Positions 9,322 through 12,274 of a DNA stretch of 54,791 nt are shown here, one piece after another (position 1 is the first letter of the stretch; each line of letters opens with the position of its first letter). The notes beneath the pieces are model-generated. The model was not told the DNA's origin, did not search any database, and worked only from the letters and a program-made list of their open reading frames with translations. Made by a program: the position numbers and the translations under genes. Source of the DNA: an uncultured Reyranella sp. (lineage in GTDB: Bacteria > Pseudomonadota > Alphaproteobacteria > Reyranellales > Reyranellaceae); NCBI GenBank assembly GCA_937915145.1, contig CALDNT010000256.1:1-54791 (forward strand). The letters run 5' to 3'.

Positions 9322-10301
9322 AGACCGGCGAAGGCGTGTTCGACTGCGGCGACCTCGCGCTGCAGCGCGGCGGCACGCTCAAGGCGGCGCGCATCGTCTA
9401 CAAGACCTACGGCACGCTTTCGCCCGGGCGCGACAACGTCATTGTCTATCCCACCAGCTACTCGGCCCATCATACCGACATCGAATGGCTGGTCGGCGTC
9501 GAACACGCGCTCGACCCCAGTCGCTACTTCATCGTCATTCCCAACATGTTCACCAACGGCCTGTCGTCGTCGCCGTCCAACGCGCCCGGGGGTACACCTG
9601 ATTTTCCTCAGGTGACGACCTACGACAACGTCATGCAGCAGCGGCGGCTGGTGGCCGAACTGTTCGGCGTCGACCGCGTGAAGATGGTCTACGGCTGGTC
9701 GATGGGCGCGCAGCAGGCCTATCACTGGGCCGCCCTGTTCGGCGATTCGGTCGAACGCATCGTGGTCAACTGCGGCTCGGCCCGCACGGCGCCGCACAAT
9801 TTCGTCTTCCTCGAAGGCGTCCGGGCGACACTGCAGGCCGCTGCCACGCCCGAGCAGGGCCTGCGCGCCATGGGCCGCATCTATGCCGGCTGGGCGCTCA
9901 GCCAGACTTTCTATCGTCGCGAGCTGTGGCGCGGCCTGGGCTTCGCCAGCCTGGAGGATTTCCTGGTGCGTTCGTGGGAAGCCAGCTTCGTGCGCCGCGA
10001 CCGGGCCGATCTTCTGGCCCAGCTTTGGACCTGGCAGCATGGCGATATCTCGGCCAACGATCTTTACCGCGGCGACCTGCAGATGGCGCTCAGTGGCATC
10101 ACGGCCAAGGTGCTGCTGATGCCGTCGGCCACCGATCTCTATTTCCAGACCGACGACAACCGCGCCGAGCTGCCTCATCTCAGGAACGCCAGGCTGGTGG
10201 AAATTCCCTCGGTATGGGGCCATCGTGCCGGCAACCCGCTGACAAACCCCGAGGACGCGGCGTTCATTGACGCCCAGGTAGAGGCACTGCTCGATGCATG
10301 A
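9318..10301 (+). CDS. MetX-like alpha/beta hydrolase
   Basis: 327 residues from GTG 9318. The start Gly-Asp-Leu-Ala-Leu-Gln-Arg-Gly-Gly-Thr-Leu then Ala-Arg-Ile-Val-Tyr-Lys-Thr-Tyr-Gly-Thr-Leu is the homoserine O-acetyltransferase (MetX) pattern. The nucleophile is Ser128 in Gly-Trp-Ser-Met-Gly; an Asp in Ala-Thr-Asp-Leu-Tyr and a His in Trp-Gly-His-Arg-Ala-Gly near the C-terminus complete the triad. It is shorter than true MetX (about 370-400) and sits in the selenoprotein operon, so the acyl acceptor may not be homoserine. The divergent metY keeps a methionine link open. Confidence 0.85.
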   Translation: MKTGEGVFDCGDLALQRGGTLKAARIVYKTYGTLSPGRDNVIVYPTSYSAHHTDIEWLVGVEHALDPSRYFIVIPNMFTNGLSSSPSNAPGGTPDFPQVTTYDNVMQQRRLVAELFGVDRVKMVYGWSMGAQQAYHWAALFGDSVERIVVNCGSARTAPHNFVFLEGVRATLQAAATPEQGLRAMGRIYAGWALSQTFYRRELWRGLGFASLEDFLVRSWEASFVRRDRADLLAQLWTWQHGDISANDLYRGDLQMALSGITAKVLLMPSATDLYFQTDDNRAELPHLRNARLVEIPSVWGHRAGNPLTNPEDAAFIDAQVEALLDA

Positions 10302-11736
10302 AGGTCTTCCCAGCGACGGTCTGGTGATCGTCGCCAAGCGCGACTGTCCGACCTGTGTCCTGATCGAGCCGGTGATGCAGAGCCTCGATCGTGCCGGTCC
10401 TCTCGCCGTCATCAGCCAGGACGATCCGGTATTTCCGTCGGGTATCGGGCGCGTGATCGACGACCACGATCTGCAGCGTTCCTTCCGGCTCGGCATCGAA
10501 ACCGTGCCCACCCTGATCCGCCTGAAAGGCGGCCGCGAAGTCGAACGCACCGTGGGCTGGGATCGCGCCGAATGGATCCGCGTCGCCGGCGCGGCCGCCG
10601 CAGGCGATGGCCTGCCGGCATGGCAGCCGGGCTGCGGCTCCAAAAGCGTCGAGCCCGGCGTGCATGAAACCCTGGTTGCGCGCTACGGCGATCCCGGCCT
10701 CGGGTCGCGCGAGATCGCGGTCGGCGAATGGGACGATCCGATCGAGGCCTGCTTCGAGCGCGGCTGGAGCGACGGGCTGCCCGTCGTGCCGCCAACCACC
10801 GACCGCATTCTGCGCATGCTGGGCGGCACTGAGCGCAAGCCGGATGAGATCGTGGGTCTGATTCCGCCCAACCTCGCACCCTGCACGGTCGAGAAGGTGG
10901 CGATCAACGCCGTAATGGCCGGCTGCAAGCCGGAATACATGCCGGTGGTTCTGGGTGTCCTCGAAGCGGCGCTCGATCCGCTGTTCGTCCTGCACGGCCT
11001 GCTGTGCACCACGCATTTCTCGGGGCCGCTGGTCATCATCAACGGACCCGCCGCCAAGGCAATCGGCATGAACAGTGGCGTCAATGCGCTGGGCCAGGGC
11101 AATCGCGCCAACGCCACCATCGGCCGCGCACTGCAGCTCATCGTGCGCAACGTCGGCGGCGGCCTGCCGGGCGGCATGGACCGCGCCACGCTGGGCAATC
11201 CCGGCAAGTTCACCTTCTGCTTCGCCGAAGATGAATCCGATCCCGACTGGGAGCCGCTGGCGCAACGCCGCGGGATTGCCGCAGGCAAGAGCGCCGTCAC
11301 TTTATTTCATGGCGAGGGCGTGAACGGCTTCATCGACCAGAAGTCGCGGACGCCGGAGGAACTCGTGCGTTCGCTGGCGATGGGCCTGTTCGGCGTCGGT
11401 CATCCCAAGCTCTGCCTTGCCGGCAACGCCGTGCTGGTGCTGGCGCCCGAGCACTACAGGATTTTCAAGGACGGCGGTTTTGACCGCCGGCGCATCGAGG
11501 ATGAGCTTTACAAGGCCTTGAAGCGGCCGGGCAGCGAGCTTGTCCGCGGTGCCCAGAATGTCGCCGAGGGCATGCCGCCGTCGTTTGCCGACAAGATGGT
11601 CGACAAATTCCAGCCCGACGGGCTTCTGATCGTTCGCGCCGGCGGTGAAGCCGGGCTATTCTCGGCCATCATCGGCGGCTGGCCCGGCCAGTCGGTACGC
11701 GATGAGTGCCAGGCCGTGACACAGGAAATTCGCTGA
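10294..11736 (+). CDS. Thioredoxin-domain protein fused to UGSC-associated domain
   Basis: 480 residues, overlapping the hydrolase by 8 bases. Residues ~8-105 are a thioredoxin fold with redox pair Cys18-Pro-Thr-Cys21 and a cis-Pro loop (Thr-Val-Pro-Thr-Leu). Residues ~145-480 are a separate domain with Gly-Trp-Ser-Asp-Gly-Leu-Pro-Val-Val-Pro-Pro-Thr, then Ala-Gly-Cys-Lys-Pro-Glu-Tyr and Asn-Ala-Leu-Gly-Gln-Gly-Asn-Arg-Ala-Asn-Ala-Thr. From memory, such proteins travel with UGSC proteins; their reaction is unknown. The layout suggests the thioredoxin part reduces a selenenyl or disulfide intermediate of the next gene product. That is inference. Confidence 0.8.
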   Translation: MHEGLPSDGLVIVAKRDCPTCVLIEPVMQSLDRAGPLAVISQDDPVFPSGIGRVIDDHDLQRSFRLGIETVPTLIRLKGGREVERTVGWDRAEWIRVAGAAAAGDGLPAWQPGCGSKSVEPGVHETLVARYGDPGLGSREIAVGEWDDPIEACFERGWSDGLPVVPPTTDRILRMLGGTERKPDEIVGLIPPNLAPCTVEKVAINAVMAGCKPEYMPVVLGVLEAALDPLFVLHGLLCTTHFSGPLVIINGPAAKAIGMNSGVNALGQGNRANATIGRALQLIVRNVGGGLPGGMDRATLGNPGKFTFCFAEDESDPDWEPLAQRRGIAAGKSAVTLFHGEGVNGFIDQKSRTPEELVRSLAMGLFGVGHPKLCLAGNAVLVLAPEHYRIFKDGGFDRRRIEDELYKALKRPGSELVRGAQNVAEGMPPSFADKMVDKFQPDGLLIVRAGGEAGLFSAIIGGWPGQSVRDECQAVTQEIR

Positions 11737-11749
11737 GGGAGATACGTCC

Positions 11750-12274
11750 ATGAACGTCGTAACCAAGCTGCGCGATCCGACGGCCGAGACCTCGCCCGTC
11801 CGCCGTTCCCGCCTGGCGCCACCGCTCTCGCTCGAGGGCAAGAGCGTCGCGCTGATGGATATCGGCAAGGCGCGTGGGTCGGAATTCATCGATCGGCTCG
11901 AAGGTCACTTCAGGAAAGCCGGTGTCACCACCCGGCGCTACCGCAAACCCACGAACACCAAGGTGGCGCCGACCGATCTGCTGCAGAAGATCGCGGCGGA
12001 AAACCAGCTTGCGGTGATCGCGCTGAGCGATTGAGGCTCCTGCACATCGTGCAGTCTGCACGACCTTCACAGCCTCGACGGACGCGGCCTTCCCGGCGTC
12101 AACATCGTCACCACCCACTTTGCCCAGGGCGTCGAAGCGCAAAGCGACGCGCTGGGATTTGAACCGGGCGTGGTCTACGTGCCGCACCCGATCCAGAACC
12201 GCACCACGGCCGAGATCGAGGCCTACGCCGACCAGGCGTTTGAAAAAGTGATGGCGCTGCTGAAGGCCACCTAG
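11750..12274 (+). CDS. UGSC-motif selenoprotein (in-frame TGA = Sec95)
   Basis: Read through the TGA at 12032-12034, the frame gives 174 residues ending in TAG at 12272. Residues 88-100 read Val-Ile-Ala-Leu-Ser-Asp-(Ala/Ser region) into Sec-Gly-Ser-Cys-Thr-Ser-Cys, the motif that names the UGSC family. The part after TGA is clearly protein (Gly-Val-Asn-Ile-Val-Thr-Thr-His-Phe, Tyr-Val-Pro-His-Pro-Ile-Gln-Asn-Arg), so TGA is not the true end. GGGAGA precedes the ATG. The Sec and two following cysteines suggest redox catalysis; the reaction is unknown. Last gene of the five-gene run; its TAG overlaps the convergent stop in CTAG. Confidence 0.88.
12032..12063 (+). promoter_or_regulatory. Bacterial SECIS hairpin of the UGSC gene
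   Basis: Directly after the TGA, TCGTGCA (12047-12053) pairs perfectly with TGCACGA (12057-12063) around the loop GTC. Counting the T of TGA as 1, the loop G and U are at 23 and 24, the same places as the SelB-contacted G23-U24 of Escherichia coli fdhF, whose apical part (GCAGGUCUGC) is nearly the same. An alternative hairpin, CTGCAC/GTGCAG (12040-12054), competes with it. Confidence 0.8.

Follow-up and report, generated by a model that had tools for sequence, protein, structure and literature searches.

The window, by which we mean the whole stretch of 54,791 nucleotides that was analysed, carries on its forward strand a reading frame (positions 11750–12274) that is interrupted by an in-frame TGA at 12032–12034, and a short hairpin lies downstream of this triplet. 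The locus raises the question of whether the TGA is read as selenocysteine under the direction of the hairpin, as the original prediction held, and whether a second hairpin that overlaps the first could switch such recoding off.

When the TGA is taken as selenocysteine, 11750–12274 encodes a protein of 174 amino acids with selenocysteine at residue 95 (U95) in the motif SDUGSCTSCSLHD. The protein matches the Pfam UGSC profile PF24696 with an E value of 4e-32, passing the cut-off by a wide margin, and the match is full-length (residues 7–172 on profile positions 2–171 of 172), spans the TGA and places selenocysteine within UGSC. UGSC is a known selenoprotein family that ranks with the most abundant ones in Global Ocean Sampling sequences (PMC2398784), and a review lists it as well (PMC13188914). 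The site is TGA in each of 45 distinct orthologues and in the four UGSC paralogues of the genome, and it is TGC or TGT in 24 Cys homologues. Against NF041046, the narrower NCBIfam equivalog for UGSC, the protein scores 122.1 bits, 2.9 under the curated cut-off of 125; automatic annotation may thus overlook this selenoprotein subfamily and close the gene at the UGA. Plasmid records held only distant UGSC relatives. The predicted structure of the protein (pLDDT 86) gave only generic alpha/beta matches (flavodoxin-, receiver- and TIR-like) of low TM-score, from which no function was deduced.

The genome has the components for decoding UGA as selenocysteine. The closest named genomes are Reyranella, and the host is a Reyranella-type alphaproteobacterium. 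Its tRNA-Sec scores 71.4 bits and is also found by ARAGORN, and its SelB scores 447 bits and has the SelB winged-helix domains, its best match of solved structure being E. coli SelB (entry 5lzb, a selenocysteine-specific elongation factor). The genes for tRNA-Sec, SelB and SelA are neighbours in a single cluster on contig C277. Four UGSC genes are present in the genome, each with one in-frame TGA and all with a SECIS hairpin. The three other than the window gene, on contigs C20, C110 and C209, are approximately 30% identical to it and share the TGA and the same kind of hairpin; in the C20 paralogue the pair G18-C30 (counted from the U of UGA as position 1) is replaced by the compensatory A-U, and in the C110 paralogue the 21–27 pair is swapped, giving the peptide UGSCSSWSFHD.

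The hairpin itself lies at 12047–12063 on the forward strand. TCGTGCA at 12047–12053 pairs perfectly with TGCACGA at 12057–12063, giving a stem of 7 bp that encloses the loop GTC (12054–12056), and the predicted letters and pairing were thus borne out, although the stem does not follow the TGA directly as had been claimed: 12 nt (12035–12046) intervene. With the U of UGA as position 1, the loop bases at 12054 and 12055 are G23 and U24, in agreement with the predicted numbering, and these are the bases expected to contact SelB. The hairpin has an energy of −8.8 kcal/mol, and it is included in the lowest-energy fold of 12025–12070. For the 39-nt stretch, folding gives a z-score of only −0.85, which is not significant, and 7 of the 1277 TGA triplets on both strands of the window are followed by G23-U24 in a stem of at least 6 bp. 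A scan of the window with Rfam gave no family at its threshold. Given this z-score and the non-negligible number of chance hairpins after TGA, folding alone was dropped as evidence for a SECIS element, and the significance of the hairpin rests on comparison from gene to gene and not on folding energy.

For this comparison 126 distinct Sec-encoding sequences from Reyranella and other alphaproteobacteria were chosen for their match to D[UC]G[SA]C[TS][ST], a peptide filter that leaves bases 22–33 unconstrained. G23 and U24 are unchanged in 126/126, a count of sequences, not of independent events, that is inflated by related sequences. In 99 non-redundant rows, 99% of the cells for the pairs 17–31, 18–30, 19–29, 20–28 and 21–27 hold a standard base pair. 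Three of these pairs (18–30, 19–29 and 21–27) show two-sided changes, two of them with accompanying changes of amino acid. The most striking is the swap of C21-G27 for G21-C27, which entails replacement of Cys by Trp and of Leu by Phe and converts UGSCTSC-SL to UGSCSSW-SF or UGSCTSW-CI; here the RNA pair is preserved at the expense of the amino acids. The other compensatory changes are G18-C30 to A-U and U19-A29 to G-U. Neither the covariation score nor the percentage of pairing was equalled in any of 2000 shuffles, and an independent count concurs. The pair A22-U26 is broken in 24 of the 126 sequences and so is not conserved, and the loop is therefore better drawn as five nucleotides, NGUNN, with an optional closing pair.

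Constraint on the nucleotides is also evident among close relatives and disappears where selenocysteine is absent. Across 40 distinct orthologous sequences, positions 13–33 are identical, wobble positions included, whereas flanking wobble positions vary. Synonymous entropy, computed over 45 orthologues, averages 0.11 bits for the seven codons of the SECIS and 0.63 bits for 100 other conserved codons. The Ser codon in the loop, AGT, is a minority codon that is fixed at the SECIS, which accounts for 45 of the 56 AGT codons used by the orthologues; ACA is similarly concentrated there (43/49). Among the 24 Cys homologues GU is found at 23–24 in none, the helix decays, the wobble sites drift and the peptide reads STHD. 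When a covariance model built from the Sec set was run on the genome, its four UGSC genes all scored E < 1e-10 and no other hit had E < 1.

These observations bear on two other ways of reading the locus. If the TGA were a true stop, the frame downstream of it would be a remnant in decay or a gene of its own, and it is the case that ORF callers close the gene at 12034 and that the NCBIfam score falls just below its cut-off. However, purifying selection acts on both sides of the TGA in the 45 orthologues, all of which keep it, Cys homologues have TGC or TGT in its place, and the genome holds the Sec-decoding set of tRNA-Sec, SelB and SelA; we regard a true stop as extremely improbable. Conservation of the nucleotides might alternatively reflect nothing beyond the conserved peptide TSCSLHD combined with codon bias, in keeping with an unexceptional folding energy and a peptide that is indeed conserved. 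Such an account has next to no chance of being correct, since it is rare codons that are fixed at the site, since wobble sites are free to vary in Cys homologues, whose peptide TSCSTHD is near-identical, and since the 21–27 pair swaps jointly with amino acid changes.

A further possibility is that the two hairpins form a switch, in which pairing of 12040–12045 with 12049–12054 would hide the SECIS and turn recoding off in some condition. The competing hairpin can be drawn as proposed, at 12040–12054 on the forward strand (CTGCAC/ATC/GTGCAG, 6 bp). It cannot form together with the SECIS hairpin, to which it is near in energy (−7.5 kcal/mol for the alternative compared with −8.8 for the SECIS), and in the ensemble of the isolated 39-nt fold the SECIS has a probability of 0.69 and the alternative of about 0.25, the single lowest-energy structure of that fold including the alternative. 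Within Reyranella, pairing of the 5′ arm is kept, G-U pairs included, in 40/40 distinct orthologues, all changes being C to T, which is one observation in favour of the alternative hairpin, and the codon at 12038–12040 is TCC, unusually common there, in 42 of 45 orthologues. Over the family as a whole, however, the alternative hairpin shows no covariation and pairs no better than shuffled columns (241/500), its individual pairs are broken in 21, 24, 14, 51 and 9 of the 126 sequences, and its mean probability is 0.09. The synonymous entropies of its three 5′ codons (0.76, 0.41 and 0.57) are ordinary for a gene with a mean of 0.63. Moreover, the ribosome masks approximately 11 nt of downstream RNA and melts the lower part of the structure (PMC4513850), and the 5′ arm of the alternative hairpin lies largely inside the ribosome during UGA decoding; with 12032–12042 covered, the probability of the SECIS exceeds 0.99, and with 12 nt covered its family mean is 0.99. 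A conserved switch was accordingly rejected: the alternative hairpin showed neither covariation nor synonymous constraint, its pairing did not hold up over the family, and occlusion from the 5′ side spoke against it as well. We consider it very unlikely that the alternative hairpin turns recoding off. It is equally doubtful that in Reyranella it slows recruitment of SelB ahead of the ribosome and in this way tunes or conditionally blocks selenocysteine insertion. The self-complementary TGCA occurs at 12041–12044 and 12050–12053, in both cases a Cys TGC followed by A, and again at 12057–12060 in the 3′ arm of the SECIS. The alternative hairpin most likely stems from these three nearby palindromes, that is, from a coincidence of coding with no shown role.

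We conclude that 12047–12063 is almost certainly a functional bacterial SECIS element, with binding of SelB and insertion of selenocysteine expected by analogy with E. coli. On that model SelB of the host, carrying GTP and Sec-tRNA-Sec, would bind the apical loop through G23-U24, and when the UGA at 12032–12034 occupied the ribosomal A site SelB would deliver selenocysteine in place of termination, giving a UGSC protein of 174 residues with selenocysteine in its U-G-S-C-T-S-C motif. The prediction of a SECIS is strongly supported by a Sec-decoding host, a known selenoprotein family, invariant G23-U24, compensatory changes in the stem and loss of the element in Cys homologues. Counted against it were the unremarkable folding energy, the chance hairpins, the absence of a U17 bulge and the presence of the rival hairpin in the lowest-energy 39-nt fold.

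Directly upstream, at 10294–11736 on the same strand, lies a gene for a protein of 480 amino acids whose N terminus bears a thioredoxin-like CPTC motif and which has no significant match in Pfam. It adjoins UGSC in nearly all loci, whether these hold Sec, Cys or paralogous versions, at 34–98% identity. The two genes are likely to share an operon, and their products probably constitute a two-component redox system. Closer to the UGA, the codon three positions before it (12023–12025) is CTG in the window and the rare Leu codon TTA in 31 of 45 Reyranella orthologues, where it is the sole TTA in the aligned gene segments; this may possibly be tied to pausing of the ribosome before the UGA, or be due to chance.

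How does the element compare with those already known? No difference was found from the consensus for bacterial SECIS elements (bSECISearch; PMC13188914), which allows an apical loop of 3–9 nt with G in the first two positions, mostly followed by G or U, an upper stem of 4–16 bp, 16–37 nt from UGA to apical loop and a minimum free energy no higher than −7.5 kcal/mol (PMC13188914). The loop of 3 nt with G first and then U, the stem of 7 bp, the spacing of 19 nt (12035–12053) and the energy of −8.8 kcal/mol all fall within these limits, and the conserved structure with compensatory changes and a host with SelA, SelB and tRNA-Sec also agree with what is expected of such an element. Three genes of a divergent UGSC subfamily, L215, L217 and L223, fall outside our selection pattern. 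Their motif is GCUGSCTPAVLR or similar, and the hairpin in the corresponding place is built from an unrelated sequence, CCCGC/GCGGG, GU being read by eye at 22–23. Positions 23–24 therefore hold for the main group and not for every UGSC gene.

Likeness to E. coli fdhF, the letters of which were verified against RefSeq E. coli genomes, is partial. As proposed, the two share a hairpin close to the UGA, G23-U24 in its loop, and a loop and 3′ arm that read GUCUGCAC at the identical positions 23–30. The comparison fails at the bulged U17, which is essential in fdhF, where mutation of U17 or of G23 abolishes reading of UGA (PMC8659212). The 5′ arm in the window is displaced by 1 nt and is without this bulge: C12048 occupies position 17 and pairs with G12062, and C17-G31 is present in 126/126 sequences. 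The apical loop is in addition 1 nt shorter than that of fdhF (GUC, or AGUCU with the A-U pair open), and little pairing is expected in the lower stem. By analogy, then, the window element would work like that of fdhF, and it is not of the fdhF subtype.

With the UGSC family (PF24696, NF041046; PMC2398784) the gene shares the UGSCxxC motif encoded with an in-frame UGA, the occurrence of homologues with Cys at that site, and a full-length profile match; it differs in scoring below the NF041046 cut-off, and its Sec versions mostly read SLHD where related Cys versions read STHD. Both the type of element and the protein family have been described before. Ordinary annotation would close the gene at the UGA, and the analysis confirms it as a selenoprotein gene. 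The SECIS documented here lacks a bulge, and its base pairs shape the adjacent residues (Cys-Ser-Leu or Trp-Ser-Phe; mostly SLHD in Sec versions, STHD in related Cys versions). Together with its relatives it offers a useful natural data set on what SelB needs beyond G23-U24.
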